Assembly: GCF_003855255.1 (NCBI RefSeq)
Contig: NZ_CP034072.1
Coordinates: 5,990,889 to 6,054,888 of the forward strand
Source: Mycolicibacterium nivoides
Lineage (GTDB): Bacteria > Actinomycetota > Actinomycetes > Mycobacteriales > Mycobacteriaceae
Direction of reading: 5' to 3'
Length of the DNA stretch: 64,000 nt
Of the stretch, positions 5,232 to 28,465 are shown piece after piece. The position numbers were made by a program, and so were the translations under genes. How positions within the stretch are numbered: the first letter of the stretch is position 1; every line of letters starts with the position of its first letter. A model generated the notes under the pieces. It searched no databases, was not told the DNA's origin, and saw only the letters and a list, made by a program, of their open reading frames with translations.

Positions 5232-5237
5232 TTCGCT

Positions 5238-5255
5238 GCCGGGGCAGCTCCCGGC
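5238..5255 (+). terminator. Hairpin after the S9/DUF3159 operon
   Basis: GCCGGG (5238-5243) pairs with CCCGGC (5250-5255) a few bases after the DUF3159 stop. The stem is 6 bp without a strong U-tract. Confidence 0.4.
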
Positions 5256-5698: not shown

Positions 5699-5968
5699 CT
5701 ACAGGCCATGTTCGCTTCGGAATACCTCATATGTGGCGGCGATGATTTCGCAGGTTGCCTCCGGATGATCCGCGGCGACGCGCGCGATGGCGGCTCGTGT
5801 GAACGGTCCAAGGTCGGTGGCGCCACCCAAGTCTTTTCCTTGGGTGAGAGCAGCGTTGAAAGTCGTTCGGAACTGTTCGGGTAGATGCCTTTCGCATAGC
5901 TTATCGATGACCGCAGTGTGCGCGGAAATCCTAGCGGCAGAACGGTGCAACGGGTTGTCAGTCGGCAT
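5699..5968 (-). CDS. Small hypothetical protein
   Basis: This 89-residue, mostly helical ORF begins MPTDNPLHRSAARISAHTAV and ends VFRSEHGL. Its ATG overlaps the end of the racemase remnant by 11 bases. No domain, signal peptide or membrane segment is visible. It could be a real small gene, or itself a leftover of a larger reading frame damaged when the racemase gene was truncated. Confidence 0.35.
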   Translation of the reverse strand: MPTDNPLHRSAARISAHTAVIDKLCERHLPEQFRTTFNAALTQGKDLGGATDLGPFTRAAIARVAADHPEATCEIIAATYEVFRSEHGL

Positions 5969-6158
5969 TGGTGTCTCCCTGGTCGTGGCAGCGAGGCATC
6001 CGCGTGCCTATTCCGGTGAGGATCTCGCAGGCGATAGTGCCGGGGGCGCCGGCGAGATCGGTGGCGCTGGGTACAGCGGTAGCGGGGTCACCGAAGATAG
6101 TCACGGTATCCGCCACTTCGATGCCCAGGCCGGTGACGTCGACGACGAATTGGTCCAT
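5958..6158 (-). pseudogene. alr: Truncated alanine racemase (C-terminal beta-domain remnant)
   Basis: Sixty-six codons beginning MDQFVVDVTGLGIEV and containing TDLAGAPGTIACEILTGIG and RMPR match the C-terminal domain of alanine racemases. In that domain the conserved MDQ and GTI.YE.LT segments line the active-site entrance. In frame just upstream, the reading is TAG-GGG-TGC-ATG, so a stop precedes the remnant, and the PLP-lysine N-terminal barrel is absent. The usual protein is about 370 residues. It lies 40 bases after the ABC ATPase gene on the same strand, so it was probably once the last gene of that operon. It is very unlikely to make an active racemase. Confidence 0.75.
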
Positions 6159-6198
6159 GCACCCCTATGCATCCGCCGGTGAAGCCACGAACCCGCTC

Positions 6199-6999
6199 CT
6201 AGGTGTCAGTCGTACTGCATGCATCGCCGTCAGCCGTCCCGCTGGGCCCTTTTCCGGGGATGGAGTCCAGCAGCAGCTGGGTGTAGGGGTGGCGCGGATG
6301 TGTGAAGAGATCGTTGCTGGGTCCGTGCTCGACGATGACGCCACCGTGCATGACCGCGGCACGTTCGGTCATGTAGCGGACGACGGCGAGATCGTGGCTG
6401 ATCAGCAGCATGGACAGTCCGCGCTCCTCCTTGAGGGTTAGGAGCAGGTTGAGGATCTGTGCTTGCACGGAAACGTCCAGTGAGGATGTTGGCTCGTCGG
6501 CAACCAGGAGATCAGGCCCACAGGCCAGGGCCCGCGCGATACCGACCCGTTGGCATTGGCCGCCGCTCAGGCGTGCAGTTCGCGAGCCGAGCGCCCGGGA
6601 GGGTAAGCCGACCTCCTCCAGGAGCTTGCGCGCCTGGTCGATGGCATTGCGCCGAGACCCGGCGTTCCAGCGGTGGAATGAGTCGGCGACGATTTCCTCG
6701 GCGCTGAGCTTCGGGTTGAGCGCACCATAGGGGTCTTGGAAGACCATCTGGACTCTGCGGCGCATCGCGTCCTTGGCCGGCCGCTTACCCCAAGCTTGTC
6801 CGCAGATAAGGACCGTACCCGCCTGCGGGGCCACCAAACCGATGATCACCTTTGCCAAAGTGGTTTTCCCGCAGCCACTCTCACCGACAAGACCGACGGA
6901 TTCACCAGCTTCGACAGCGAGGGAAACCCCCTTGAGCGTGAGTTCGCGGGCATCGTATCCCGCAGTCACGCCCGACACTTCGACCAGTAGTTCAGACAT
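6199..6999 (-). CDS. Dpp/Opp-type ABC transporter ATPase (DppF-like)
   Basis: This 266-residue nucleotide-binding subunit has Walker A GESGCGKTT, the Q-loop FQDPYGALNP, signature LSGGQCQRV, Walker B LLVADEPTSSLD and the H-loop LISHDLAVV. The C-terminal HPRHPYTQLLL segment is typical of oligopeptide-transporter ATPases. ATG 6999 (MSELLVEV) is chosen because it overlaps the upstream ATPase stop by eight bases; a longer frame to 7134 would run deep into that gene. It is the last intact gene of a four-gene import operon and acts with the DppD-like subunit on the inner face of the membrane. Confidence 0.9.
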   Translation of the reverse strand: MSELLVEVSGVTAGYDARELTLKGVSLAVEAGESVGLVGESGCGKTTLAKVIIGLVAPQAGTVLICGQAWGKRPAKDAMRRRVQMVFQDPYGALNPKLSAEEIVADSFHRWNAGSRRNAIDQARKLLEEVGLPSRALGSRTARLSGGQCQRVGIARALACGPDLLVADEPTSSLDVSVQAQILNLLLTLKEERGLSMLLISHDLAVVRYMTERAAVMHGGVIVEHGPSNDLFTHPRHPYTQLLLDSIPGKGPSGTADGDACSTTDT

Positions 7000-8020
7000 C
7001 GAATTCCTCTTCAGCACGTATACACCGGACGAAATGCCCTGCTTCGACCTCGTCGACCGGCGGGGGGCTGCTCCTGCATTGGTCCACGGCGAGCGGACAG
7101 CGGTCTGCGAATCGGCAACCCGATGGCCAGGCACCCACCGCAGGTGGGCGCCCCGGCAAGCCTTTCAACCGTGCCCCCAAATCGTCGGTCATCGATGGAC
7201 GCGCTTGCATCAGCGCGGCCGTGTAGGGATGCCGAGACCTCCCGAAAATTGTTTCGGTGCTGCCTGATTCCATTGACTGCCCGGCATACATCACCAGGAC
7301 GCTGTCGCAGACATCGCTGACAACGCCGAGATCGTGTGTCACCAGAATGAGTGCCATGCCGGTCGAAGTACACAGCTCGGTCAACAATTCCAGAAGCCGA
7401 CGTTGCACAGTCACATCTAGAGCTGTGGTCGGCTCGTCTGCGACCAACAGTCGCGGCTCGCCGGCAATACCGAGTGCGAACATGACACGCTGGCGCATGC
7501 CACCGGACAGCTCGTGCGGATACTTGGTGAGTACTCCTTTGGGGTCGGGCATATGCACCGCTGCCATCAGCTCCTCGGCGCGCCGCGTTGCGTTCTTCTT
7601 GCTCACCCCGAAATGCCGAACCGCCTCGGTAAGCTGTTGGCCGATCTTCATTACGGGGTTCAGCGAGTTCAGCGAACTCTGTGGGATGAAACCGATTTCG
7701 CTTCCCCGGATCTGCCGCCACTGCCGGTCGTCCAAGGTAAGCAGATCCATATCGCGATACCGTAACTCGCCGGAGGCCTCCAAGCCCCTCCGCTGCAGGG
7801 CACCGAGCACCGCTCGACAGGTGATCGATTTGCCGGATCCGGTCTCCCCCACGATGCCCAGGCGTTCGCCCTGGGAGAGCGTGAAACTCACTGAGTCCAC
7901 GATAGGTACCTGACCGGCGCGGACGACAAGGTCCCGGGCGCTCAGGAGGATGTCGTGGGAATCAGCGGCGGCCGCAGCTGGCATGTTGATCTCCAGAGTT
8001 GCTGGGGCGTGGGTGCTCAT
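6992..8020 (-). CDS. Dpp/Opp-type ABC transporter ATPase (DppD-like)
   Basis: This 342-residue ATPase has Walker A GETGSGKS, signature LSGGMRQRV, Walker B LLVADEPTTALD and H-loop LVTHDLGVV. The C-terminal oligopeptide-transporter extension carries the cysteine pattern GCRFADRCPLAVDQC and a final RCIRA, which in this family binds an Fe-S cluster or stabilises the fold. The ATG at 8020 overlaps the permease stop by four bases (ATGA). A longer frame extends through the permease gene and is a shadow. It energises import together with the DppF-like subunit. Confidence 0.9.
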   Translation of the reverse strand: MSTHAPATLEINMPAAAAADSHDILLSARDLVVRAGQVPIVDSVSFTLSQGERLGIVGETGSGKSITCRAVLGALQRRGLEASGELRYRDMDLLTLDDRQWRQIRGSEIGFIPQSSLNSLNPVMKIGQQLTEAVRHFGVSKKNATRRAEELMAAVHMPDPKGVLTKYPHELSGGMRQRVMFALGIAGEPRLLVADEPTTALDVTVQRRLLELLTELCTSTGMALILVTHDLGVVSDVCDSVLVMYAGQSMESGSTETIFGRSRHPYTAALMQARPSMTDDLGARLKGLPGRPPAVGAWPSGCRFADRCPLAVDQCRSSPPPVDEVEAGHFVRCIRAEEEFDV

Positions 8021-8898
8021 TTGTCCCCCTCGGACAGGACTCGGGACCCCTGCCCCATGAGCCGGACTGCGATACCGGTGCACACGATGAACAGACCGGG
8101 ACCTAGGCATACCCAAGGTGCCTCGCTCAGAACTGAACGGCCGTCGTAGATGATGCTGCCCCACTCGGGAGTCGGTGGTTGCACGCCGGCACCCAGGAAC
8201 GGCAGGGCGGCAATCACGCCGATCACCAACACCGCGTCGGACAACCCATACGTGAGTGTGGCGGGCAGAACATTGGGGAAGATGTGGCGACGCACGGTCG
8301 TCCACCAACTGAGGCCGCTGACGCGCGCTGCTACCAGGAAGTCGCGCTGACGCAGCGAGAGCGTCTCGCCCCGCGCAATACGCGCGTAGACGCTCCAGCT
8401 GGTCAGGAACAGCGCGACCAGAATTCCGGGAACGCCGGGCGGCAGGATCCAGAATGTGGTCGATTGTCCGATCACTACGGCAAGGGCAAGGATCAGGATG
8501 TTGAAGGGAAACGCGAGAATCGCGTCGACGGTACGCATGATGACCCGGTCCAGCAGCGAGCCAGCGACCAGTCCTGACGCGATCCCGACCACTGTGCCGA
8601 CAAGCAGCGGCACGACAACTCCGATGAAGGCGACGCCGAGGTCCAGTCGACCACCGATGAGGGTGCGGATGAAGACATCGCGCCCGAACGCGTCCGTACC
8701 GAATGGGTGGGCCAGGCTCGGACCGGTGAGTGGTATGCCCACGAAGTCGGTGGTCGAGGTGGTGACGAACAACGGCACCAGGACGCACAGCGCAACAATG
8801 GTGCCGAACAGTCCCGCGCCGGCAGCAAAGGTTCCGTTGACGCGAGTCGACGCTAGCCGTGCGCGCGCTGCGACGGCGATCGGTGCAAGTGAGGTCAT
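8017..8898 (-). CDS. Dpp/Opp-type ABC permease (DppC-like)
   Basis: This 293-residue permease has an N-terminal segment, then the HPFGTDAFGRDVFIRTLIGGR motif region typical of DppC/OppC. Five further helices follow, with the cytosolic EAA-type loop RDFLVAARVSGLSWWTTVRRH, where the ATPase docks. The end of the protein has the usual LPFLGAGVQPPTPEWG segment. It overlaps both neighbours by four bases, so the four transporter genes are translationally coupled. Confidence 0.92.
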   Translation of the reverse strand: MTSLAPIAVAARARLASTRVNGTFAAGAGLFGTIVALCVLVPLFVTTSTTDFVGIPLTGPSLAHPFGTDAFGRDVFIRTLIGGRLDLGVAFIGVVVPLLVGTVVGIASGLVAGSLLDRVIMRTVDAILAFPFNILILALAVVIGQSTTFWILPPGVPGILVALFLTSWSVYARIARGETLSLRQRDFLVAARVSGLSWWTTVRRHIFPNVLPATLTYGLSDAVLVIGVIAALPFLGAGVQPPTPEWGSIIYDGRSVLSEAPWVCLGPGLFIVCTGIAVRLMGQGSRVLSEGDK

Positions 8899-9929
8899 GA
8901 GCGTGCCCTTGGGTCGACGGCAGCATGGAGGAGATCGGCGACGAGATTGCCCGCAAGGACGATGAGTGCGGTGATCACGGCGGCTCCCTGGATGGTCGGA
9001 TAGTCACGCTGGGAAACGGCATTCACCAATTGGGTTCCGATTCCCGGCAGGTCGAAGACCGCCTCGATGACGGCGGCGCCGCCGATCAGAGTCCCTATGT
9101 TCATACCCACGACCGAGATGGTCGGCATCAGACTGTTCGGCAGCACATGACGCAACGCCACCCGGGTCGGGCTGTGGCCGCGCAGGATGGCGGCCTCAAC
9201 GAAGTCCTCGTTCATGATCTGGCGGGCACTCGTCCACACCGCGCGATGCACCAGTGCGCCGAGGTAGGCGCTGAGTGCCAACGCCGGCAACCACACGAAT
9301 TGCCCATTGGCAGGCCAACTCCCGGCCCATCCCCCGGCCGGCGCCAATCCCCAGCGCACGGCTACGAAGACCAGCATGATGAGTCCGAGAAGGAAAGGCG
9401 GGGTCGCCAGCGATGAGGTGGACAGCACCTCGAGGGTGTTGCGCACCAAGCCCGATTTCGACAATGCGGCCACCAGACCGCTCAGCGATCCGAACAGCAC
9501 CGAGATGACCACCGTCGTGGCGATGACCGACAGGGTCACCGCCAGAGGCGGAAATAGCAGGCTTTCCACTGATTGCCCCGGGTGCGCCACCGACTGCCCG
9601 AAATCACCTTGCACGACGTCACCTACATAGGTGAGGAACTGGTTCAGGAGTGGCCTATCAAGCCCGAGAGCTTCCCGCAGTGCGGCAACCTTTTCCGGCG
9701 ATGCGTGGATCCCCAGGATGGTGCGTGCTGGATCGCCGGGAACCAGATGCACCAACAGGAAACTCAGCGCCACCACGATCAATGTGACGACGATCGAATC
9801 GAGGAGGCGCTTTCCCGCGGCGATCGCCAGGCGGGCTGCGGGAGCGTTACGCCAGCGCATACGGGTCTCTGGTGGTGCGCCGTTCGGGCGAGTCGGCACC
9901 TTCTGTTCACTGTCCGCAATCACCGTCAC
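8895..9929 (-). CDS. Dpp/Opp-type ABC permease (DppB-like)
   Basis: This permease of about 344 residues has the family hallmarks LVHLVPGDPA after the first helix, LGLDRPLLNQFLTYV, and the EAA loop EDFVEAAILRGHSPTRVALRHVLPN. The terminal segment is DLPGIGTQLVNAVSQRDYP. The start is uncertain. GTG 9929 (VTVIADSEQK) gives a normal length. An in-frame ATG at 10016 adds 29 residues with no family-like features, and an internal ATG near 9860 is also possible. It is the first gene of the import operon and divergent from the first PLP enzyme gene. Confidence 0.85.
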   Translation of the reverse strand: MTVIADSEQKVPTRPNGAPPETRMRWRNAPAARLAIAAGKRLLDSIVVTLIVVALSFLLVHLVPGDPARTILGIHASPEKVAALREALGLDRPLLNQFLTYVGDVVQGDFGQSVAHPGQSVESLLFPPLAVTLSVIATTVVISVLFGSLSGLVAALSKSGLVRNTLEVLSTSSLATPPFLLGLIMLVFVAVRWGLAPAGGWAGSWPANGQFVWLPALALSAYLGALVHRAVWTSARQIMNEDFVEAAILRGHSPTRVALRHVLPNSLMPTISVVGMNIGTLIGGAAVIEAVFDLPGIGTQLVNAVSQRDYPTIQGAAVITALIVLAGNLVADLLHAAVDPRARS

Positions 9930-10166
9930 AAGCCCAGACCCGATCCGTCGGCGCGGGTGCGATCGGGCTGACCGACTGCCACCGCAATCTCCCAAAGCGA
10001 CCGTTGTGAGACCCAAGCCATCGCGGCGGCACGGCCACAGTTCCGCGTAGCTGATTCTGGCGGAGAAATCACGACATCGGACCGGTCGACTGAGGGCATG
10101 CCGGGGAGGCCACCCCTTCCTCGGTCATGGGTCTCACAGGTCATACGCATATCCCGTCATCTACTG

Positions 10167-10174
10167 ATAGTATG
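10167..10174 (+). promoter_or_regulatory. ATAGTATG site in the dppB/PLP-enzyme divergent promoter
   Basis: ATAGTATG lies in the roughly 380-base divergent region between the dppB-like gene and the first PLP enzyme gene. It is preceded by CTACTG, forming a small TACT-GAT-AGTA dyad. The same ATAGTAT core occurs upstream of three other transcription units in the island (13283, 18946, 21562). It could be a -10 hexamer (TAGTAT, or TACTAT on the other strand), an operator, or both. The rest of the intergenic stretch shows no gene. Confidence 0.5.
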
Positions 10175-10310
10175 TCTTTAGTGAAGCGCACCACAGAAGC
10201 AGTGTCAATACGCGAATGCCGCGCCCATCGTCCGCCACCTCGCCAAGCAGTTCGGTGCGGCCGGCGCGCGCGTACCACAGTTCGCAAGCCGCCCCGGCTG
10301 GAGCAGCACG

Positions 10311-11603
10311 ATGCCAGGTGACACCCCCGTAAAGCCGGTGCTGCCAGCGTGGACGGCGACGGAACCCGCCGACCGAGCGGACTGCATCAGCCAACAACAG
10401 TGGAAGGGAACATCCCTGCAGGACAGCATGTTTGATCCGGCAGGGAACAGCGTTCCGATTGTCCAGTCCGGTTTGATGTGGCCAATGGCCTGCGTACGTT
10501 TGTCTTCGATGCACCACAACGCCGCGGTCGTACGCGACGTGTGCCAGGCGCACGGGGTGCAGCTGGCACCGCACATGAAGGCCAGTATGTCGCCGGAGGT
10601 CGCAGCGCTGCAGACCCACGGGTCTCCGTGGGCGCTCAGCGTGGCATCGGCGGCACAGCTGATGGCCGTGCGTTCCTGGGGCGCCGGGCGGGTGCTGTTG
10701 GCCAATGAGACCAGCGACCCAACGTTGTTGTCTTGGCTGCGTGCCGAACTCGTCCGCGATCCTGGGTTCGAGTGCTACTTCTATGTGGATTCGGCAGCCG
10801 GTGCCGCCCTGGCAGGGAAGTATCTGGCCGAGGCGCCGTCGGCGTACACCCTCATCGAATGCGGCTACCCCGGCGGACGGGCTGGCGCACGTCGGTACAA
10901 CCAGGTCGCCGAAGTTGCCTATGTGGCTCGCGATTGTGGGCTGCGTGTGGTCGGCGTTGCGGGTTACGAAGGCATGCTCGCCGAGGATCGTTCGGATCGC
11001 TCCATTCGACGTGTGAGGTCCTTCGGGCTGTTGTTGCGGCGCTGGCTTGGCCAACTCGACGAGGACGGACTTCTCGACTCCGCGTGCGAAGAGTTCGTGA
11101 TCAGCTGCGGGGGCAGCATGTTCTTCGATGTGCTCGCACGGGAACTCGGGGCGCCGTGGGCGTTGGCGCGCCCGGTGGTTCCGGTGCTTCGAGCGGGTTC
11201 GTTCATTCTTCACGACCACGGCCACTACGCGGGAGCCGGGCGACCTGGTCGTGACCTGGGTTTGCGGCCGGCGCTAGAGATCTGGGCGCAGGTTCTGTCG
11301 CGCCCGGAATCTGACTTGGTGATCCTTGGTGCCGGTCGTCGCGATATCGGTTCCGATCTGGGATTGCCCGTCGTCGTGCGCAGCGTCGCTCCGGCTGCAC
11401 CACTGCATCGCGCCGAAGCAGAGGTGTTCGATATGCACGACCAACATTTGTTGGTCAAAGTTCCTCCCACACACCGCGTTAACGTCGGCGATGTGGTGGT
11501 TCTCGGCGTTTCGCATCCGTCAATCACCATGGACAAATGGCCCGCGTTAGCAGTGCTCGATGACGATGACCGCATCATTGGCCGCATCTCGACCTATTAC
11601 TGA
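10311..11603 (+). CDS. Fold-type III PLP enzyme, D-amino acid deaminase-like, copy 1
   Basis: This 430-residue protein of the D-serine dehydratase/D-threonine aldolase/D-glucosaminate dehydratase superfamily has an N-terminal alanine-racemase-like barrel. The PLP lysine is expected at Lys90 in APHMKA. The C-terminal beta-domain contains ISCGGSMFFDV, SGRRDIG-like GAGRRDIGSDLG and DMHDQHLLV. The final metal-site motif reads SHPSITMDKW. At the position where the second copy has His-x-Cys, this copy has His402-x-Ser404. The start is supported by colinearity with copy 2 from the N-terminal WKG/FKG segment on. It probably cleaves or deaminates a D-configured 2-amino acid; a changed or lost metal requirement is inferred from the Cys-to-Ser change. 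Confidence 0.8.
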   Translation: MPGDTPVKPVLPAWTATEPADRADCISQQQWKGTSLQDSMFDPAGNSVPIVQSGLMWPMACVRLSSMHHNAAVVRDVCQAHGVQLAPHMKASMSPEVAALQTHGSPWALSVASAAQLMAVRSWGAGRVLLANETSDPTLLSWLRAELVRDPGFECYFYVDSAAGAALAGKYLAEAPSAYTLIECGYPGGRAGARRYNQVAEVAYVARDCGLRVVGVAGYEGMLAEDRSDRSIRRVRSFGLLLRRWLGQLDEDGLLDSACEEFVISCGGSMFFDVLARELGAPWALARPVVPVLRAGSFILHDHGHYAGAGRPGRDLGLRPALEIWAQVLSRPESDLVILGAGRRDIGSDLGLPVVVRSVAPAAPLHRAEAEVFDMHDQHLLVKVPPTHRVNVGDVVVLGVSHPSITMDKWPALAVLDDDDRIIGRISTYY

Positions 11604-11617
11604 TGAAATCCAACAGC

Positions 11618-11649
11618 TTCAGGCCCGGCCTTGAGGGGCCGGGCCTGAA
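11618..11649. terminator. Strong bidirectional hairpin terminator
   Basis: A perfect 13-bp stem (11618-11630 with 11637-11649; TTCAGGCCCGGCC and its complement) with a 6-base loop lies between the convergent PLP-enzyme gene and binding-protein gene. Confidence 0.85.
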
Positions 11650-11685
11650 CTCTGCGTAGGGAGATGTCGTGCCGACGTGAAAGGT

Positions 11686-13260
11686 CTATTGACCCGGGCC
11701 GGTTTCGGCGGTCCCGACCTGGAACACACCTGCCGGCGTCAACGCCACTACCCGCGGCGACAACGACGATGCCCAGATCGAGGCAAAATCAGTTAGTGGG
11801 ACAAACGGCAGATCGCGAGCGAACCGGTCGTTGATCTTGGTGAGAATGCCTGTGCGTGCCGTCCGATCGGCGGCCGCTGATAGTTGAACCACCAGGTCGG
11901 TCATCTCCGGTGAGTTGTACGACGAAAACAGGGAGTTGATCCCGCCATCGGGGGTGAGGCCCAGCGGCAGCATCGTCAGCTCGGGCGCGTTCGCCAAGTC
12001 GTAGAGGCTACTGACCTCCATCTGAAAATTGCCGTTTTGCTCGTTGGTGTTGATGGTGGACTGGTCTACCGTCTGCAGAGCGACGGTGATTCCGACATCG
12101 GCGAGGTTCTGCTGAATGATGGTGGAGATGGAGTCGAAGGGCGCAAACCCTGACCGCACCATGATGTTGAGGTTGCACCCGCCCTGGCAGGCCGTCCCCT
12201 TCAGGAGTTCTTTGGCCTTCTCGATGTCACGGTCGGTGGATACCGAGGAGTCATGACCCTCCATCGTCGACGGCAAGAAACTGCCGAGAACCTTGTTCTG
12301 GCCCAAGTAGGCGATGTCGTTGATCTGGTCGCGGTCGATCGCAGCCGAAATCGCCTGCCTCACTTTCGGTTCGTCGAGCGGTTTGCTGAGGTTGTTCATG
12401 AACAGATATACGCCGCCGTACTGTGGAGTGGCGTAGGCCTTGGCCGGCGACTTCACCTGCTTGGCTAGAGCTGCCGACAGCTGGCCGGCGACGTCGATCT
12501 GACCGGTATTCAGTTGGGCTAGACGGGTGTTGGCGTCAACGACGACTTTGAACTCGACATTGGGCACTACGGGCTGTAACTCAGCGGGGTAGTTCTCGTT
12601 GCGTTTGAACACCACGTCGTTTGGATTGTTCGCCACCAAAGCGTACGGACCTGCCGAGACGGGGTGCTGCCAGAATTGCGGATCTGTCGCGGCTGCGGCA
12701 GGAAAGACGCCGACCGGCGCTTCGGTCAGGGCAAGCGGGAAGCTCGCGGCCGGGTGCTTCAGGGTGAAGATGACTTCGGTGGTGCTGGGCGCCGTCACCG
12801 AGGCCAGGGACCCGATGATGCCGGCATTGGCGTTGGCGGGGTCGTGGAGGGCACGTTCGAATGTCGCCACAACATCCGCGCCGGTCAGCGGACTTCCGTC
12901 GGAGAACATCAAGCCATTCCGCAGCGTGCACGTGTAGTTGAGCTGCGAGTCGTCGAATTGACAACCCGTCGCCAAACCCGGCGCTGCCTTGCCTTCCCGC
13001 TGCACCATCAGGGTTCCGGAGATCAGCCCGAGCGCCATCACGTCGACCTCCTGTGTCGCCTGATTGGGATCGATTGAGACGATCGAGGCTCCAACGCCGA
13101 CGCGGATCGTGTCAGGAATGACAGCGGGTAGGTCGCCGGTTGTTTCCGCGACGCCGGCGGTGGACATCGGCTGTTCTCCCGCCGTCCCGCAAGCAGTCAG
13201 CAATCCACCACTGATCGCCACGATCGCGACCGCCGCGAGCGACCTACATTGTGTCTTCAT
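11686..13260 (-). CDS. Lipoprotein substrate-binding protein of a Dpp/Opp-type importer (SBP family 5)
   Basis: This 524-residue protein has a short signal peptide ending in the lipobox LLTAC-G (Cys near residue 24), so it is predicted to be lipid-anchored outside the membrane. The body has the family-5 pattern: LRNGLMFSDGSPLTGADVV, then GPYALVANNPNDVVFKRNENYP, and VRQAISAAIDRDQI. It is the only solute-binding gene near the four-gene transporter and very probably delivers its substrate to it. It is transcribed separately, from a promoter that carries the shared ATAGTATGAGT motif. Family members bind di/oligopeptides, nickel chelates, or sugar conjugates; the ligand is not deducible. Confidence 0.88.
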   Translation of the reverse strand: MKTQCRSLAAVAIVAISGGLLTACGTAGEQPMSTAGVAETTGDLPAVIPDTIRVGVGASIVSIDPNQATQEVDVMALGLISGTLMVQREGKAAPGLATGCQFDDSQLNYTCTLRNGLMFSDGSPLTGADVVATFERALHDPANANAGIIGSLASVTAPSTTEVIFTLKHPAASFPLALTEAPVGVFPAAAATDPQFWQHPVSAGPYALVANNPNDVVFKRNENYPAELQPVVPNVEFKVVVDANTRLAQLNTGQIDVAGQLSAALAKQVKSPAKAYATPQYGGVYLFMNNLSKPLDEPKVRQAISAAIDRDQINDIAYLGQNKVLGSFLPSTMEGHDSSVSTDRDIEKAKELLKGTACQGGCNLNIMVRSGFAPFDSISTIIQQNLADVGITVALQTVDQSTINTNEQNGNFQMEVSSLYDLANAPELTMLPLGLTPDGGINSLFSSYNSPEMTDLVVQLSAAADRTARTGILTKINDRFARDLPFVPLTDFASIWASSLSPRVVALTPAGVFQVGTAETGPGQ

Positions 13261-13278
13261 AGTCTCATCCTGTCAGTC

Positions 13279-13289
13279 ACTCATACTAT
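13279..13289 (-). promoter_or_regulatory. ATAGTATGAGT site upstream of the binding-protein gene
   Basis: On the minus strand ATAGTATGAGT ends 18 bases before the ATG at 13260, followed by an AGGATGAG ribosome-binding stretch. It is identical over 11 bases to the site at 21562-21572 in front of the second SDR. TAGTAT is a plausible -10 hexamer; the longer identity suggests an overlapping operator. Confidence 0.55.
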
Positions 13290-13345
13290 TTGTTGTGGAA
13301 CGGCCGGGATCGCCTGCTCAATCGCTACCGAACGGGCCTGCACGG

Positions 13346-14761: not shown

Positions 14762-14770
14762 CGTCAGCTC

Positions 14771-16234
14771 CTACCGTTGCACCTCGGCAGGCACCAACGC
14801 CGGCGGAAGCCCTTGGAAGGCGACCGGTCGCAGGAAGCGCATGATGGCATCTGGCCCCACCGAGGTGAACAGCGGATTCGAGGTGGCTGGGAACGGTCCG
14901 CCGTGGTGCTGACCGGTCACTACGGCTACACCAGTTGGCCAGGAATTCCACACCACCCGACCTGAGATTCGTGCAGCCACGCGGATCACGTGGCGCAGCA
15001 GCGCGCACTCGTCGCGGCCGTGAATCGAGCTCACCAGGCAACCCTGCAGCGTGCAACAGAGGGCCATAAGTTGGTCGTCGTCGTCGTATTCCACCAACAA
15101 GCCGGCAGGCCCGAAGTACTCGCGGTCGATCAATGAGCGGTTCTGCAATGCCATGTCGGCGCTGAGGCTGAAAACCACTGGCCGTACGTGGAATCCGCTC
15201 GCAGGAAGGGACGCAGTCGATTCGTAGATTGCGACGCCGGACCGCCCTTTCAGTTGCTCCACCCCAGCGACGAACTCTGATTGGATGCCCCGGTGCAGCA
15301 GCGCCGCGGCGGGTCGGGCCAGGATCTGTTCAGCAATCGCCGCCGACAGGTTGACGCGTCGTGGAGCGATCAGCAACCCGGGATTCGTGCAGAACTGGCC
15401 GCCGCCCAGAGTCAACGAATCAAGGTAGTCGCCGATGAAACTGTGGACGTCGGTGATGGCATCAGGTAGGACGAAAACAGGGTTGACACTGCCGAACTCG
15501 CCGTAGAACGGGATGGGGTCTGGCCTGCTGGCGGCCACGCCTGCCAGGGCGCGCCCACCCGCGAAGGAGCCGGTGAATGCGGCGGCGCGGACCGTGGGGT
15601 CGCTCACAAGTCGTATGCCTTCGTCTATACCGGAGACGAGTGCGAACACACCAGGATCCACTCCGACTTCCGACAGCGCGTCGTCGATGATGCGCGCGGT
15701 GAGCAGCGACAGCTGCGGGTGTGCCGGGTGCGCCTTGACTATGACGGGGCAGCCGGCAGCCAGCGCGGAGGCGGTGTCTCCCCCGGCGACGCTGAAGGCG
15801 AAGGGGAAATTGCTGGCGGCGAAAACTGCGACGGTTCCGAGGGGCAGGTGGTACCGGTGAAGGTCAGGGCCACCTGGCGGGGTCCCGGTGTCGCCGGGGA
15901 TTGTTACACCGGCGTGGGCGAGGTGCGCACCATGAGCGATGACCTCGGCGAACATCCGCAGCTGTGTGGTCGTACGGGCGACTTCGCTTGTCAGCCGAGG
16001 TGTTCCGAGCCCTGTTTCGTCGTCGGCGATCGCGACTAGGTCCCGGCTCGCATGGGCTAGCGCATCGGCGATGCGGCGCAGCGCTGCAGCACGGACTGGT
16101 CCTGGCGTTGCGGCCCAGCCGGGGCCGGCTTGCGCTGCGCGCTGCACGATCTCGTTGTGCTCGTGTGCTGAAGTCTCGGCGAAGCCGATCGCGCCTGACG
16201 CTCCGGAGCTGGGATTGGTCGATGTCGACGTCAT
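14771..16234 (-). CDS. Aldehyde dehydrogenase, 2-ketoglutarate-semialdehyde dehydrogenase type
   Basis: This 487-residue NAD(P)-dependent aldehyde dehydrogenase has the catalytic cysteine in GGGQFCTNPGLL, the general-base glutamate in FYGEFGSVNPVF and the NAD-binding FAASNFPFAFS. These wordings are those of the KGSADH/2,5-dioxovalerate dehydrogenase branch, which oxidises 2-ketoglutarate semialdehyde in pentose and hydroxyproline breakdown. The ATG at 16234 is chosen because it has AAAGG eight bases upstream; the frame is open to 16369 but would overlap the lactonase gene. It lies 49 bases after the lactonase gene and nine before the S12 hydrolase gene, so it is in the same operon. Confidence 0.83.
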   Translation of the reverse strand: MTSTSTNPSSGASGAIGFAETSAHEHNEIVQRAAQAGPGWAATPGPVRAAALRRIADALAHASRDLVAIADDETGLGTPRLTSEVARTTTQLRMFAEVIAHGAHLAHAGVTIPGDTGTPPGGPDLHRYHLPLGTVAVFAASNFPFAFSVAGGDTASALAAGCPVIVKAHPAHPQLSLLTARIIDDALSEVGVDPGVFALVSGIDEGIRLVSDPTVRAAAFTGSFAGGRALAGVAASRPDPIPFYGEFGSVNPVFVLPDAITDVHSFIGDYLDSLTLGGGQFCTNPGLLIAPRRVNLSAAIAEQILARPAAALLHRGIQSEFVAGVEQLKGRSGVAIYESTASLPASGFHVRPVVFSLSADMALQNRSLIDREYFGPAGLLVEYDDDDQLMALCCTLQGCLVSSIHGRDECALLRHVIRVAARISGRVVWNSWPTGVAVVTGQHHGGPFPATSNPLFTSVGPDAIMRFLRPVAFQGLPPALVPAEVQR

Positions 16235-16283
16235 CTGGAATGCCTTTGTGGTCGGAAGTTGGTTTTCTTTCGGGTCTAGTGAT

Positions 16284-17192
16284 CTAGCCGCCATAGCGGT
16301 GTGGCGCGATGCCACGCCCTGCCCCGAACCAGGCCAAAACGTGACCGGCCCAAGGTTCTTCATCCTCAATGGCGGTAGCGACCCGAGCTGACGTTACGAA
16401 CAAGGTGTCCAGAGCGGCCCCGCCGAACGCCGGACACGTGGGGTGGCTGACCGGCAGAGCGAAGATGTCTCGCAACCGTCCGTTTGGGGAATAGCGGCGT
16501 AGATGGCCGCCCTCCCAGACTGCTACCCACACGTCGCCGGAGCGGTCGACGGTGAGCCCGTCGAGGTACCCCAACGCGGGATCTATGGTGGCGAATTCTT
16601 GGCGCTGTCCGAGCCCGCCGGTGTGCAGGTCGTATTCGTAGACGTACACCACAGGTTGGCCGGAGTCGATGAAGTACATCCTGCGTCCGTCGGGTGACCA
16701 GCCGATGCCGTTGGATTCGGTGAGATCCCCCAGCAGTCTCCTCGCGTGGCCGTCAACGGATACGGAGAACAGCTCCCCCAAACCGACGACGTTTCCACCG
16801 GTCGTTCCGACCAGCAGCCGGCCGGCGGGATCGCAGGAGCCGTCGTTGAACCGCACCCTCGCGATATCGATCGGAAGGTAGATCGGTCCACGGTCGGGGC
16901 GGCCGTCGCCGTCGAGCAGCACGATGTGCTGGCCGGTGGCCACAGCGAGGCCGCCGTTGGCACGCAGCAACGTGACTCCGATGGGCAGCCCCTCGGGCTG
17001 CGACCAGATCACCGTGTCATCGCACCCGCCACTGGAATGCACCTTGCCAGTGACGCAGTCAGTCCAGATCAGCCTGTTCGAGCGGACGTCCCACAAAGGG
17101 TGCTCACCGAGCTCAGCGCCCGCTTGCACCGCAACATGCCACTGAGCGGTCTCGCCGTCGAGCGTGCGAACGGGCGGAACGGGCTCGTTCAC
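16284..17192 (-). CDS. SMP-30/gluconolactonase-family lactonase
   Basis: This 302-residue six-bladed propeller has the usual metal-site landmarks: GEHPLWD (Glu) near residue 33, RFNDGSCDPAGRL (Asn) near residue 114, SNGIGWSPDG, and YLDGLTVD (Asp) near residue 208. Family members hydrolyse sugar lactones to aldonic acids. It overlaps the U32-like gene by four bases (ATGA). With an SDR two genes upstream, this resembles a sugar or amino-sugar dehydrogenase plus lactonase pair. The exact lactone cannot be read from sequence. Confidence 0.85.
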   Translation of the reverse strand: MNEPVPPVRTLDGETAQWHVAVQAGAELGEHPLWDVRSNRLIWTDCVTGKVHSSGGCDDTVIWSQPEGLPIGVTLLRANGGLAVATGQHIVLLDGDGRPDRGPIYLPIDIARVRFNDGSCDPAGRLLVGTTGGNVVGLGELFSVSVDGHARRLLGDLTESNGIGWSPDGRRMYFIDSGQPVVYVYEYDLHTGGLGQRQEFATIDPALGYLDGLTVDRSGDVWVAVWEGGHLRRYSPNGRLRDIFALPVSHPTCPAFGGAALDTLFVTSARVATAIEDEEPWAGHVLAWFGAGRGIAPHRYGG

Positions 17193-18151: not shown

Positions 18152-18153
18152 CT

Positions 18154-18906
18154 TCAGCCTTCCTGGTGAACCGGATTGAGGTCGGATTCGCCGCGCAGGC
18201 TGATACCGCCGTCGACAGAGATCAACTGGCCGGTGATCCACGCTGCGTCGGTGGACAGGAGCATGCGTACCGCTGAGCCGATATCGGAGGCATGGCCGAT
18301 GCGGCCCAACGGTGTCCGCCGGACGATCTCACGCATCTCGTCGGCATCCTGGAGCGCTTCGTGAGTCATCGGAGTGTCAGTCTCGCCCGGCGCCACGATG
18401 TTCACTCGGATGTCGTGCTCGCCCAATTCGGACGCGGCCGTTTTACCCAACATCGTCACCGCCGCCTTGGAGGCGCAGTACTGGCTGATGCTCCGGCATG
18501 GCCAGAAAGCGTTGTTCGAGGCGATCAAGATCGCCGATCCGCCTCCCCCAGCGGCAATCCTGTTGCGCGCGAACGCACGCAGAGCCCGAACCGAGCCCAT
18601 CAGATTGATGTCGAGCACCGTGTTCCAGTCCTCGTCACTGGAATCCACCAAGTACTCACCAGCGCAGATGCCCGCCGAGTTGACCAGCGCCACCGCGTCG
18701 GGATGTGAATTCACCCATGCGTCGACTGCAGCAGTGTCACGTACATCAACGACAGTGCCCACCCCACCCACTTGCGCGGCCACCTGCTCCACTGCGACGT
18801 CCCGGTCGGCAAGAGCCAGCCGCCAACCTGCCTGCGCGAGGGCCTTCGCGGCCGCTCGACCGATTCCTGAAGCGGCGCCCGTGATGAGCGCGAGTTGACC
18901 GGTCAT
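18154..18906 (-). CDS. Short-chain dehydrogenase/reductase, first of the island
   Basis: This 250-residue SDR has the classical pattern TGAASGIG (residues 9-16), the NSAG motif, catalytic Ser in LIASNNAF, YCASK, and the C-terminal LISVDGG. ALADRD at the end of the second strand favours NAD(H). It has AAAGGAG just upstream of the ATG. It heads an operon of five genes (SDR, U32-like, lactonase, aldehyde dehydrogenase, S12 hydrolase). Oxidation of a sugar or amino-sugar hemiacetal to the lactone used by the SMP-30 neighbour is a reasonable inference. Confidence 0.85.
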   Translation of the reverse strand: MTGQLALITGAASGIGRAAAKALAQAGWRLALADRDVAVEQVAAQVGGVGTVVDVRDTAAVDAWVNSHPDAVALVNSAGICAGEYLVDSSDEDWNTVLDINLMGSVRALRAFARNRIAAGGGGSAILIASNNAFWPCRSISQYCASKAAVTMLGKTAASELGEHDIRVNIVAPGETDTPMTHEALQDADEMREIVRRTPLGRIGHASDIGSAVRMLLSTDAAWITGQLISVDGGISLRGESDLNPVHQEG

Positions 18907-18945
18907 GAATGAGAACTCCTTTGATCGCGATGGACAACCAGAGAG

Positions 18946-18952
18946 ATACTAT
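18946..18952. promoter_or_regulatory. Shared ATACTAT/ATAGTAT site in the SDR/PLP-enzyme divergent promoter
   Basis: ATAGTAT on the minus strand lies 39 bases upstream of the SDR start, giving TAGTAT as a -10 candidate for that operon. On the plus strand the same bases give TACTAT for the second PLP-enzyme gene at 19006. The whole divergent region is 99 bases. It is the third copy of the island-wide core motif. Confidence 0.5.
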
Positions 18953-19005
18953 ATGATGATGATAATGAAAGCTACTGTGACTATGCATAGAAGGCGAGGC
19001 CAAAA

Positions 19006-20274
19006 ATGGCACTGAAGTCCTTGGCCAACAACGGAACAGGCGCGGGAGCCGCCCCGCCGGACAACTTGTTCAAAGGCCTGCCATCCGGCTCGACACTGAA
19101 AAACCCGCTGCCCGTATGCGCGCTCTCAGCGGGATTCATGTGGCCGATGGCCGTTATCAGCGATCCGGCACTGCGCAACAACGCCGCCCTGATGTCCGAA
19201 GTTTGCGCTCGCTACGGCGTGCAGCACGCGCCGCACCTCAAGACCTCGATGTCACCCGAACTGGCGGAATTGCAGGCAGATGAGGGCGCATGGGGTTTCA
19301 CTGTCGGGTCGAGTTCGCAGGTCCGTACCGCCAGGTCGTGGGGTTGGCGACGCATCGTTTTGGCGGCTGAGTGCGTCGACGCGCAGTTCCTGCGCTGGCT
19401 GGGCTGCGAACTCGAAGCAGACCCAACATTCGAGTTCTACCTGTTCATCGACTCGGTGGCGGGCGCCCAAGTGGCCGCACAGTACCTCGGCAACGTCGGA
19501 GTACGTGCTGGAATCCTTCTCGACGTGGGCCATTCAGGCGGGCGCACCGGCGTCCGCGATGATGATTCCGCCCTGGCGGTGGCCCGCGCGATCGCAGATC
19601 TCGAGCTTTCCCTCGCGGGGATCGCGGGCTACGAAGGGACCGTCGGCGCCGAACGCACACCTGCGGTCACGTCGGCAGTGTCGGCCTACCTCCGCCGCTT
19701 ACGTACCACCGCAGAACTGCTGGACCGCAATGGCATGTTCGACCCGCGACGGGAGTCGTTCATCGTCAGCTGCGGCGGCAGCACGTTTTTCGACCTCGTC
19801 GTCGACGAGCTCAGCCGATACTGGACGCTCACCCGTCCCGTGACGACGGTTCTGCGCAGCGGCTGCTATCTGCTGCATGATCACGACTTCTACGCGTCTA
19901 GCGCGCCGACCTTTCCGTGGGGCGGGCGGCTTCAACCGGCCCTAGAGGTGTGGGCCCAGGTGATTTCGCGTCCCGAGCCCGGTTTGGCCATCCTCAACTC
20001 GGGCAGGCGCGACATCGGCTTCGACCTCGGCCTGCCCATTCCGCTGCGCATCATCGATCCCAGCTCGACAGTTCACAGCATTACGGCAGGAACCATCACC
20101 GAACTCAACGATCAACACGCCTACCTGACAATCCCTGCAGCACAACAGCTCTCGGTCGGCGACTTGGTCGCACTCGGCCTGTCACACCCCTGCACCACCA
20201 TGGACAAGTGGCGCGCGATACCCGTCATCGATGACGAGCTTCAAGTCATCGACTACGTACGAACTCACTTCTAG
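19006..20274 (+). CDS. Fold-type III PLP enzyme, D-amino acid deaminase-like, copy 2
   Basis: This 422-residue paralogue of the enzyme at 10311 has PLP Lys79 in APHLKT and the barrel motif LLDVGHSGGRTGV. It also has GIAGYEG, VSCGGSTFFD, NSGRRDIGFDLG and ELNDQHAYL. The C-terminal metal motif is SHPCTTMDKW (His394, Cys396), the His-x-Cys pair that binds zinc in D-serine dehydratases. The HPCTT(F/M)DKW wording is that of the bacterial 'amino acid deaminase' branch, which from family knowledge includes D-glucosaminate dehydratase and D-threonine aldolase activities. It is followed 28 bases later by a RidA gene, which fits an enzyme that releases enamine products. Confidence 0.83.
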   Translation: MALKSLANNGTGAGAAPPDNLFKGLPSGSTLKNPLPVCALSAGFMWPMAVISDPALRNNAALMSEVCARYGVQHAPHLKTSMSPELAELQADEGAWGFTVGSSSQVRTARSWGWRRIVLAAECVDAQFLRWLGCELEADPTFEFYLFIDSVAGAQVAAQYLGNVGVRAGILLDVGHSGGRTGVRDDDSALAVARAIADLELSLAGIAGYEGTVGAERTPAVTSAVSAYLRRLRTTAELLDRNGMFDPRRESFIVSCGGSTFFDLVVDELSRYWTLTRPVTTVLRSGCYLLHDHDFYASSAPTFPWGGRLQPALEVWAQVISRPEPGLAILNSGRRDIGFDLGLPIPLRIIDPSSTVHSITAGTITELNDQHAYLTIPAAQQLSVGDLVALGLSHPCTTMDKWRAIPVIDDELQVIDYVRTHF

Positions 20275-20302
20275 ACACACCCACCACACAGAAAGGCTCG
20301 AC

Positions 20303-20677
20303 ATGAAATTGATCAGCACCGACCGCGCCCCGCATCCCGCTGGCGCCTACGGCCAGGCCGTCGTGGCATCGGGGTTCGTCTTCACCGCGGGAATGGCACC
20401 GGTGGATCCGGTCACCGGCAAGGTGATCGGAGAAGGCATCCGCGAACAAACCCGCCGTACTCTCGACAATCTGGAAGCCGTCTTGGAGAGCGCCGGATCG
20501 AGTCTGAGTCAGGTCGTCAAGGTGACCGTCCATCTCGAAGACGTCGAGCGCGACTGGCCCGAATTCGACGCCGTATTCGGCGAGCGGTTCGAAGGACACC
20601 GGCCGGCGCGTACCGCAGTGGGGTCCCGCCTCGGCGACATCCTGGTCGAGATCGACGCAATCGCCCTCGCACCCTGA
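20303..20677 (+). CDS. RidA-family enamine/imine deaminase
   Basis: This 124-residue protein has the RidA landmarks HPAGAYGQAVVASGFVFTAG, the EQTRRTLDNLEAVLESAGSSL helix, and RPARTAVGSRLGDILVEIDAIA. The arginine and glutamate in the last part contact the imine carboxylate in family members. ATG 20303 has GAAAGG six bases upstream; an upstream in-frame start at 20231 would overlap the PLP enzyme. The pairing with a D-serine-dehydratase-like enzyme is functionally sensible, because RidA hydrolyses 2-aminoacrylate-type intermediates to keto acids and ammonia. Confidence 0.9.
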   Translation: MKLISTDRAPHPAGAYGQAVVASGFVFTAGMAPVDPVTGKVIGEGIREQTRRTLDNLEAVLESAGSSLSQVVKVTVHLEDVERDWPEFDAVFGERFEGHRPARTAVGSRLGDILVEIDAIALAP

Positions 20678-20688
20678 CCGCACGGAAC

Positions 20689-20731
20689 AGCCCCGGAAGC
20701 GATGTGCCTGAAACTCAGCGCTTTCGGGGCT
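20689..20731. terminator. Hairpin between ridA-like and gntR-like genes
   Basis: AGCCCCGGAAGCG (20689-20701) pairs with CGCTTTCGGGGCT (20719-20731), 12 of 13 bases, with a 17-base loop. It serves two convergent genes and overlaps the last codons of the regulator gene. Confidence 0.65.
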
Positions 20732-21530
20732 TCTTCGTAGTCGGCCAGTCAGGCTTCCACCGATGGTCCACCTCGTCGAGTTGCTCATCGCTCAGCGCCC
20801 GTCGAAGAGTGGTCCCCACCGACCAATCGAGGTGCCGCGCCATCTCACGACGGGCTCCTACGACATCTCGGTTACGCAATGCCTTTGCGATTTCGAGGTG
20901 CGCATCATGCACGTCGCGGACTTCACTTGCGTCGAGCTGATCCACCGCCCACGTCGGGACCAGCTCGCGTCTGATGTCCGCAACCAACCGGGTGAGCACC
21001 AAATTGCCGGAACCCTCAGCTATCGCTCCGTGAAAAGCGAGATCGTCGGTGACCCGACCACGCACATCAAGAGGCTCGTCGTCTTTGTCCGCAGCATCAT
21101 CGTGCATGCGCTGTGCCATTTGCACGATCTGATCGAGCTGCTCATCACTCGCCCGGACTGCGCACATCTCGGTCGCTGCGATCTCCACCAGTCGCCGGAC
21201 CTCGTAGAGGTCGGCGGCTAGAGAGCCAGCCAGCTGCTCGCGCGAAATGGCGTGCTGCACCAGGTCTTCGAGAAAGCGCCAGTCTTTGGCCGCCGTGACG
21301 GTCGACTTGCGTCCGTGCTTGACATCGATCAGGCCGGCCGAGGACAACGCCTGCAACACTTCACGGCCCACGGTTCGGGATACCGCGAATTTCTTCGCGA
21401 TCACTTCGGCGGGCGGCACGATGTCCCCCTCCCGCAACCGTCCCGCCACAATGTCGCGGGCCAACCTCCTCGCCACCCGCTCATGCAACCGTTCCTGTTC
21501 AATCACGTCGTCGTCCCAGGAAATCGACAT
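20715..21530 (-). CDS. FadR-type GntR-family regulator (FCD domain)
   Basis: This 271-residue protein has a GntR winged helix (residues ~12-85, PPAEVIAKKFAVSRTVGREVLQALSSAGLI). A helical FCD ligand domain follows, whose metal/ligand residues fall in DLAFHGAIAEGSGN, VHDAHLEI and MARHLDW. Such proteins usually sense organic acids and repress nearby catabolic genes. It is divergent from the second SDR across 44 bases containing one of the four ATAGTAT sites. It is the only dedicated regulator in the island and the best candidate to act at all four sites. Confidence 0.88.
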   Translation of the reverse strand: MSISWDDDVIEQERLHERVARRLARDIVAGRLREGDIVPPAEVIAKKFAVSRTVGREVLQALSSAGLIDVKHGRKSTVTAAKDWRFLEDLVQHAISREQLAGSLAADLYEVRRLVEIAATEMCAVRASDEQLDQIVQMAQRMHDDAADKDDEPLDVRGRVTDDLAFHGAIAEGSGNLVLTRLVADIRRELVPTWAVDQLDASEVRDVHDAHLEIAKALRNRDVVGARREMARHLDWSVGTTLRRALSDEQLDEVDHRWKPDWPTTKKPRKR

Positions 21531-21561
21531 TCGCCCTCCGAACCGGAAATCCGGCCATCAG

Positions 21562-21572
21562 ATAGTATGAGT
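21562..21572 (+). promoter_or_regulatory. ATAGTATGAGT site between gntR-like and SDR genes
   Basis: ATAGTATGAGT ends three bases before the SDR ATG at 21575. If TAGTAT (21563-21568) is the -10 box, transcription would begin at or near the ATG, giving a leaderless mRNA. TAGTATGAGTA fits the general FadR-type operator TNGTNNNACNA with one mismatch. On the other strand TACTAT could serve the regulator gene, allowing autoregulation. Confidence 0.55.
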
Positions 21573-21574
21573 AT

Positions 21575-22339
21575 ATGTTCTTCAGTGAGGATTATAACGG
21601 AGCTTCATGCCCTGAACGGGCAGACATTGCCCTCGTGACGGGTTCGGCGGGCGGAATCGGGTCTGCGATCGTCGCTGAACTCAAACGTCGCGGGATGATC
21701 GTCATTGGCGCCGACCGCACCCCTGCGGGCAGTGGCAGCGAAGACCACTTCCTCTCAACAGATCTCGCAGAAGTCGAAGCCGACAGCTTGATCACGGCCT
21801 CCACCGACGCGTGCGGGACGGCGCCCCACGTGCTGGTCAACTGCGCCGGAGTGAGCATCGATGCTCCGGCCGAGACATTGAATCGGCAGCAACTCGAACG
21901 CGTTCTGGCCATCAATCTGATCGCGCCCATCGAACTCTCGATCGCCGCCGGCCGCCGGATGCTCGAAGACGGCTACGGCCGCATCGTGAACATAACGTCG
22001 ATACACGGTCGCGCCGGAGCCATCGGATGCCTTCCTTACGACGCTTCCAAGGCCGGACTCGACAATGCCACGCGCACCCTTGCCGCCGAGTGGTCACGCC
22101 GCGGTGTTCTCGTGAATGCCGTCGCGCCAGGCTTCGTCCGCACCGCGATGTGCACCGACGAGCGGCTCTCACAGCCGTGGTTCACCGAAGGCTACGTCGC
22201 GAATGGCCGCCTGCCGTTGGGCCGCGCAGCACAGCCAGAAGAGATCGCAAAACCCGTCGCATGGCTATCAAGTCGCGAAAATACCTATGTCACAGGACAA
22301 GTGATCTACGCCGATGGTGGCCTATACAGCACATTCTGA
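21575..22339 (+). CDS. Short-chain dehydrogenase/reductase, second of the island
   Basis: This 254-residue SDR has TGSAGGIG near residue 25, VNCAG, ITSIHGRAG with the catalytic serine, and YDASK. Its C-terminal end is VIYADGG. An unusual N-terminal extension of about 22 residues (MFFSEDYNGASCPERAD) precedes the first strand; no other in-frame start exists before it. The gene is alone on its transcript. It may oxidise a keto-deoxy acid or another product of the PLP enzymes, which is inference. Confidence 0.82.
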   Translation: MFFSEDYNGASCPERADIALVTGSAGGIGSAIVAELKRRGMIVIGADRTPAGSGSEDHFLSTDLAEVEADSLITASTDACGTAPHVLVNCAGVSIDAPAETLNRQQLERVLAINLIAPIELSIAAGRRMLEDGYGRIVNITSIHGRAGAIGCLPYDASKAGLDNATRTLAAEWSRRGVLVNAVAPGFVRTAMCTDERLSQPWFTEGYVANGRLPLGRAAQPEEIAKPVAWLSSRENTYVTGQVIYADGGLYSTF

Positions 22340-28450: not shown

Positions 28451-28465
28451 ACAATGGGAAATTGT
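28451..28465. promoter_or_regulatory. ACAAT-n5-ATTGT inverted repeat in a divergent promoter
   Basis: Perfect 5-bp arms with a 5-base spacer lie between the enolase-superfamily gene and the aldehyde dehydrogenase gene. The whole 350-base region has no other gene. It is a candidate operator for an unidentified regulator. Confidence 0.4.

Follow-up and report, generated by a model that had tools for sequence, protein, structure and literature searches.

Among the closest described counterparts of the locus considered here is the D-glucosaminate (Dga) pathway, which, according to PMC9529869, comprises a DgaABCD phosphotransferase system (PTS), the ammonia-lyase DgaE and the aldolase DgaF, and for which RidA-type enamine chemistry is discussed. 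Two further points of reference are the Weimberg/Dahms-type non-phosphorylating oxidation of sugars and the zinc-dependent D-serine dehydratase/D-threonine aldolase family, whose members are fold-type III enzymes using pyridoxal 5'-phosphate (PLP). According to PMC4401734, a His plus Cys or a His plus Asp pair holds the metal of this family, which is the proposed activator of the substrate beta-hydroxyl; the D-threonine aldolase pair is His347/Asp349. We analyzed a stretch of 64,000 nucleotides of Mycolicibacterium nivoides (NZ_CP034072.1; "the window", whose positions are used for all coordinates unless a locus is named), in which an initial annotation had outlined at 5699..22339 a candidate island for the catabolism of D-amino acids or amino-sugar acids. 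This island is a real, conserved catabolic block, and its most informative gene encodes a U32-like protein.

As in the Dga route, a PLP ammonia-lyase would form a 2-keto-3-deoxy acid from a 2-amino sugar acid, and a second enzyme would then act on the product. Unlike that route, the island has no evident PTS or phosphorylated intermediate, its PLP enzyme is of fold-type III (PF14031) instead of SelA-like, and the next enzyme is U32-like. Models of SelA/DgaE found no match among the island proteins scanned, and DgaF (PF07071) was found in none of the 29 genomes reached through our loci, the window's own not included, with control genomes equally silent. With Weimberg/Dahms-type oxidation the island has in common a dehydrogenase, an SMP-30 lactonase, a predicted dehydration to a 2-keto-3-deoxy acid and an aldehyde dehydrogenase (ALDH). 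However, one of its two fold-type III enzymes (PLP2), together with RidA, takes the position of IlvD/Edd, and the island contains neither a FAH- or DHDPS-type second dehydratase nor an aldolase of these types. IlvD/Edd was absent from loci L010-L013 and from the island proteins of the window, and none of the genome's own FAH, HpcH, DHDPS or PF01081 genes lies within the island. The D-serine dehydratase (DSD) family resembles the island enzymes in PF14031, the Schiff-base lysine motif and, for PLP2, the His-Pro-Cys motif; it differs in that the island enzymes carry Leu or Met for the usual Gly before the lysine and that PLP1, the paralogue of PLP2 within the island, has Ser for the ligand Cys.

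The same gene order and relative orientation were found in five other mycobacterial genomes: M. brisbanense, M. aquaticum, Mycobacterium sp. 852013-50091, Mycolicibacterium sp. S2-37 and a genome designated G101. Thirteen genes, all but DppF and PLP1, are 65-90% identical to these relatives, with 85-90% for the short-chain dehydrogenase/reductase SDR1 and likewise for the GntR/FCD regulator, 83-87% for the permease DppC, 83-84% for DppB, 77-83% for DppD across all five and 73-76% for SDR2. DppF reaches 79-81% in G101, M. brisbanense, sp. 852013 and S2-37, the four genomes for which that part was fetched. Among 297 genomes drawn from the genus, five carry a U32 orthologue, and in all five, the copy of M. 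nivoides included, a PLP2 orthologue of at least 67% identity lies less than 1 kb away; in the other 106 genomes with a PLP2 match, identity does not exceed 48%. The scattering in relatives that the initial annotation had regarded as fatal to an island is therefore not what these genomes display.

Open reading frames of at least 150 amino acids on both sides of the island found no convincing counterpart in the flanking regions retrieved for four relatives, so that the island seems to occupy different surroundings in each case, while its core from DppF to SDR2 keeps a single order across the six genomes. Horizontal spread of the block is part of the explanation we favor, although we would stop somewhat short of an even chance for it. 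A plasmid origin was considered and dropped, as a plasmid collection searched in "near" mode returned no match. The composition varies at a few points. A PLP1 orthologue was detected only in S2-37, both among the 297 genomes and among the five relatives, and a second receptor is present in all five relatives and absent from the window. Within the transporter region, PLP1 is oriented against its neighbors, at a site where the relatives have the second receptor and S2-37 alone has both.

With 22.2 bits, the U32-like protein stays just below the PF01136 cut-off of 22.4, and many of its relatives carry a precomputed PF01136 assignment. It differs from peptidase U32 proteins in being a single barrel of ~320 amino acids without four cluster ligands. 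Ten residues (E48, E53, R74, E102, D159, K182, N207, E233, R243 and K260) are identical in all 55 sequences aligned. Only one cysteine column of the alignment exceeds 30%, and it is conserved at 55%. A role as an Fe-S hydroxylase was therefore rejected; the characterized U32 proteins that hydroxylate RNA or ubiquinone have four cluster-ligand cysteines, which are not matched here. A peptidase role was likewise rejected, as the genomic context does not support it, and no PDB sequence matched at an E-value of 1.

When named genomes were scanned with the U32 alignment, 79 loci emerged from the 80 best of 178 confirmed stretches. Of 75 distant actinobacterial loci, 59 have an IlvD/Edd sugar-acid dehydratase near the U32 gene, and in 53 of 78 loci examined the U32 gene is located directly downstream of it. 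Other neighbors among the 75 loci are zinc alcohol dehydrogenases (49), ALDH (23) and SMP-30 proteins (19). Two loci (L050 and L054) combine U32 with an Opp importer, a DgaE-family PLP enzyme, an amidohydrolase and RidA; here, a non-homologous PLP ammonia-lyase occupies the place of PLP2. In two more (L062 and L072), U32 is paired with an enolase-superfamily enzyme. The partners of U32, i.e., IlvD/Edd, the DgaE-like enzyme with RidA, the enolase-superfamily enzyme and PLP2 with RidA, would all make 2-keto-3-deoxy acids, and we infer that U32 acts on these. Two other roles were discarded: that of a helper to IlvD, since the mycobacterial island and L050/L054 are without IlvD, and that of simply the "missing lyase", which 8 of the 75 loci contradict. 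Searches of open-licence papers yielded no description of this island or of U32 proteins in sugar-acid metabolism.

Two recurrent arrangements around U32 were seen in passing. A protein of ~390 amino acids without a Pfam match, M24/creatinase-like by eye (HYQGGPIG; cluster c7), occurs at L081:8713-9900 and in 32 other loci; in 28 of 78 loci its gene immediately precedes that of U32. At L042, L043, L046, L048, L051 and L052, U32 occurs with an M20-type deacylase, an SDR and a GFO/IDH/MocA protein, representatives having been scanned in L048 only; five of these six loci also have a GNAT acetyltransferase, and the set looks like an acyl-amino-sugar version.

As to the reaction of U32, four mycobacterial loci (L119-L122) are informative. 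Each encodes a U32 relative with 34-36% identity, followed by an acetaldehyde dehydrogenase (AcDH) and a DmpG-type aldolase; the ten invariant residues hold in these four relatives as well. The order is that of the meta-cleavage end segment mhpD-mhpF-mhpE of E. coli, which begins with the gene for the hydratase MhpD. The segments differ in that no FAH-type hydratase was found in L119-L122 with a small own-genome profile, and in that genes for an amino-acid permease, ALDH, amine oxidase and IlvD come next. Since an aldolase is already present in these loci, U32 is less likely to be one; the reading favored is that of a (de)hydratase acting on 4-hydroxy-2-oxo acids, which would suit both the island and L119-L122. 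In an own-genome control for FAH beside AcDH-DmpG, the four regions fetched contained no such pair, which makes the control uninformative. The complete catabolic set (IclR, U32 relative, AcDH, DmpG aldolase, amino-acid permease, ALDH, amine oxidase and IlvD) appears to be undescribed; the DmpG frame is split in L120.

A control of 29 IlvD loci drawn regardless of U32 was compared with 62 distinct loci having both U32 and IlvD, of which 59 stem from the scan, and had thus themselves been found by U32, and three are new from the control. A DHDPS, FAH or HpcH protein was present in 13 of 22 IlvD loci without U32 versus 8 of 62 with it (Fisher p 5.7e-5; p 0.0027 for loci longer than 15 kb). This gives weak support to the notion that U32 stands in for an enzyme of these types.

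PLP2 and PLP1 score 70 and 55.4 bits, respectively, against PF14031 (cut-off 22), and the alanine-racemase-like N-terminal barrel PF01168 matches PLP2 (E 4.4e-8) and not PLP1 at 1e-3. The solved structure closest to PLP2 is 3gwq, annotated as a D-serine deaminase. The initial annotation had assigned both enzymes to an HPCTTxDKW branch, which holds for PLP2 (HPCTTMDKW, a His-x-Cys pair) and not for PLP1, where HPSITMDKW replaces the metal-ligand Cys by Ser; HPS occurs only in PLP1 and P0121-P0123, and the other 118 of 122 aligned rows have HPC. The His-x-Asp pair of D-threonine aldolase is found in neither. The residue before the Schiff-base lysine is Leu or Met in the island enzymes (APHLK/APHMK), as compared to APHGK in 110 of 122 rows and APHGKS in three. 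A D-glucosaminate-type activity for this fold, which the initial annotation had mentioned, could not be confirmed in literature searches.

The genome of M. nivoides has a second DSD-like locus (L123, G000:C1:1508000-1524000, 3860-11257) with a GntP permease, a PF01081 aldolase, an amidohydrolase and the PLP enzyme, divergent from IclR and RidA, which is probably a pathway for an acylated amino-sugar acid. In 11 of 297 genomes, a DSD-like gene has a PF01081 gene no more than 1.8 kb away; of five aldolase-linked loci fetched, three also encode GntP and the amidohydrolase. For the ordinary mycobacterial DSD-like clade (L124-L129), the 15-16 kb fetched contained no aldolase of the PF01081/KDPG (2-keto-3-deoxy-6-phosphogluconate) type. 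Because D-serine would need no KDPG-type aldolase, the DSD-like fold in mycobacteria plausibly yields 4-hydroxy-2-oxo acids. In a tree of 19 mycobacterial sequences, three groups are supported: island PLP1 and PLP2, with PLP1 on a long branch; the enzymes linked to a KDPG-type aldolase; and the rest. The island enzymes thus form a clade of their own, and the argument extends to them by analogy only.

Taking together the observed gene content, conservation, co-occurrence, promoter motif and contexts of U32 relatives, we consider it possible, at a little under even chances, that the island degrades a 2-amino-2-deoxy sugar acid, either free or in the form of a conjugate or lactone. The Dpp importer would take up a conjugate, from which the S12 hydrolase would release the substrate. 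Judging from their families, SDR1 may oxidize the sugar to a lactone and the SMP-30 protein may open it. PLP2 and RidA would then remove water and ammonia to give a 2-keto-3-deoxy (4-hydroxy-2-oxo) acid, as fold, metal motif and the presence of RidA suggest. The U32-like barrel would convert this acid, most likely as a dehydratase, to a semialdehyde, which ALDH could oxidize to a 2-oxo dicarboxylate, namely 2-oxoglutarate for a five-carbon substrate; were U32 an aldolase, the products would be pyruvate and an aldehyde for the same ALDH. The oxidative, non-phosphorylating amino-sugar route of the initial annotation, which we prefer in amended form with U32 processing the keto-deoxy acid, gains from contexts outside the window, namely U32 relatives in sugar-acid clusters, the DgaE-like/RidA version and the own-genome pairing of a DSD-like enzyme with a KDPG-type aldolase. 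A catabolic block with importer, regulator, PLP enzyme and RidA, lactonase and ALDH was rightly recognized, but the U32 gene, merely listed there, is the best clue to it. More broadly, and with greater reserve, since we would lean against it if pressed, we propose that U32-like proteins are a new TIM-barrel class acting on 4-hydroxy-2-oxo acids, most likely as (de)hydratases. They would be a third solution beside FAH and DHDPS, common to actinobacterial sugar-acid, amino-sugar-acid and meta-cleavage-like pathways, and in mycobacteria would complete a non-phosphorylating amino-sugar-acid route in which a D-serine-dehydratase fold replaces IlvD. If so, a function would be available for a family of at least 7585 database members, mostly labeled "hypothetical" or "U32 family peptidase", and sugar-acid metabolism would have a new enzyme, relevant to pathway engineering. 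"D-serine deaminase" labels on such PLP enzymes may then conceal amino-sugar-acid dehydratases, and mycobacteria would consume an amino-sugar-like acid through a block built of known parts. If U32 is a dehydratase and ALDH a 2-ketoglutarate semialdehyde (KGSA) dehydrogenase, the amino acid should be five-carbon and end in 2-oxoglutarate.

Several observations weigh against this proposal. Fold comparison of U32 returns generic barrels only, ALDH accompanies U32 in only those 23 of 75 loci, and cycloisomerases are the best match to the enolase-superfamily enzymes of L062/L072. A DHDPS-family lyase is present in 6 of the 75 U32 loci and a FAH protein in two. Collapsing seven loci of a single genus removes the significance of the lyase difference (p 0.086). 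In all four of L119-L122, IlvD lies ~8.6 kb downstream and could supply a 4-hydroxy-2-oxo acid without a hydratase, and the aldolase-linked DSD-like clade is distinct from that of the island. An aldolase reading of U32, with the rest of the pathway unchanged, draws on its holding the place of the DgaF-/KDPG-type aldolases in comparable PLP pathways (the Dga route of PMC9529869 and the own-genome locus) and on a TIM barrel with invariant Lys182 and Lys260. The DmpG-type aldolase already present downstream of the U32 relative in L119-L122 and the generic fold result both speak against it, and we regard it as improbable.

The main rival concerns the substrate: D-residue peptides, e.g., derived from muropeptides, would be imported and hydrolyzed, with S12 as a D-aminopeptidase, PLP2 as a D-serine/D-threonine dehydratase and the sugar-type genes handling an attached sugar. 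It accounts well for the Dpp importer, for the annotation of the structure closest to PLP2, for the His-Cys pair that PLP2 retains from D-serine dehydratase (as given in PMC4401734) and for S12, whose closest structures are 2qmi and 4y7p and which resembles Pab87 and alkaline D-peptidase. At the place of the racemase remnant, G101 moreover has a full-length Alr frame with both domains and a stretch 58% identical to the remnant, so that an alanine racemase ends the operon there, a better fit to work on D-amino acids. Yet Alr was not seen in the fetched flanks of three other relatives, S12 scores 42.8 bits against a D-aminopeptidase cut-off of 443, D-serine would give pyruvate with no call for U32, lactonase or ALDH, and the U32 relatives mostly reside in sugar-acid clusters. 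We hold this reading to be unlikely, if clearly in contention. Still another option is a catabolic block for something else, loosely assembled, with U32 as a sugar-acid epimerase or isomerase. PLP1, the second receptor and Alr do differ between relatives, and some U32 loci (L016, L026) already have a complete known enzyme set, but the constant order of the DppF-SDR2 core in six genomes with unrelated surroundings leaves this option a poor prospect.

Comparing the two divergent gaps (SDR1/PLP2 and regulator/SDR2) by eye, we identified the common motif CATCANATAGTAT, which was then tested. At up to two mismatches the window has three copies (13283, 18946 and 21556), all in island gaps; dinucleotide shuffles contain 0.85 matches on average and 1 of 100 reaches three, so that the copy count taken alone is modest. 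Conservation is the stronger argument: the motif occurs within two mismatches in both divergent gaps of all six island genomes, the SDR1/PLP2 gap is alignable around it across the relatives, and matches to a related 15-base pattern are confined to 12 of 168 loci, every one of them an island locus of the same six genomes. Classic FCD operator patterns were found at neither of the window's two divergent gaps. The three motif-bearing gaps suggest one regulon, which the FCD regulator probably controls by putative binding to the shared motif. The possibility raised by the initial annotation that the regulator acts only elsewhere is weakened by this motif, the binding itself being putative.

The features are listed in Table 1; scans with Pfam and NCBIfam models recovered every gene named in the initial annotation, down to the racemase remnant. 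The minus strand reads, 5' to 3', SDR1, U32-like, SMP-30, ALDH, S12, receptor, DppB, DppC, DppD, DppF and the racemase remnant, with the regulator, also on this strand, between RidA and SDR2. PLP1 (between receptor and DppB), PLP2 with RidA, and SDR2 are on the plus strand.

Table 1 Positions of the island genes and motif copies in the window.
Feature	Position	Strand	Family match and remarks
Alanine racemase remnant	5961..6164	-	PF00842 (Ala_racemase_C), last 58 positions, E 1.8e-12; downstream of DppF
DppF-type ATPase	6199..6999	-	PF00005 + PF08352; start at MSELL assumed
DppD-type ATPase	6992..7999	-	PF00005 + PF08352; start approximate
DppC-type permease	8017..8898	-	PF00528
DppB-type permease	8895..10016	-	PF00528 + PF19300; true start probably near 9893
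PLP1, fold-type III enzyme, in-island PLP2 paralogue	10311..11603	+	PF14031; HPS replaces HPC
Peptide/solute receptor, lipoprotein, solute-binding protein (SBP) family 5	11686..13260	-	PF00496 (SBP_bac_5), E 3.3e-73
Motif copy upstream of receptor gene	13283..13295	-	1 mismatch
S12 serine hydrolase, D-aminopeptidase/esterase fold	13346..14761	-	PF00144
ALDH	14771..16369	-	PF00171; true start probably near 16240
SMP-30-type lactonase	16284..17192	-	PF08450
U32-like TIM-barrel protein, 320 amino acids	17189..18151	-	22.2 bits vs PF01136
SDR1	18154..18906	-	PF13561
Motif copy, divergent SDR1/PLP2 gap	18946..18958	-	
PLP2, D-serine-dehydratase-like, HPCTTMDKW	19006..20274	+	PF14031 + PF01168
RidA	20231..20677	+	PF01042, TIGR00004; true start probably near 20303
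GntR/FCD (FadR-type) regulator	20715..21530	-	PF07729 + PF00392
Motif copy, divergent regulator/SDR2 gap	21556..21568	+	
SDR2	21575..22339	+	PF13561

The Dpp/Opp importer is complete (SBP family 5 receptor, two permeases and two ATPases), and the receptor has an LTAC lipobox by eye, as S12 has the motifs SCTK, YSN and HRG. The SMP-30 protein matches PF08450 with 216 bits and aligns with regucalcin over the whole barrel, including the stretches GExPxW, RFNDG, SNG and DG, which we take to be metal and active-site positions of SMP-30/regucalcin. The designation of ALDH as KGSADH-type is based on its closest solved structures, 1eyy and 3v4c; against NF042993 (KGSA dehydrogenase; cut-off 770) it scores 85.8 bits, and it reaches no NCBIfam equivalog cut-off. 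Adjoining the island, one long frame at 22951-25848 (-) has PGRS repeats and a weak carboxymuconolactone decarboxylase match. An enolase-superfamily protein and a second aldehyde dehydrogenase are encoded divergently at 27067-29998, some 5 kb outside the island.

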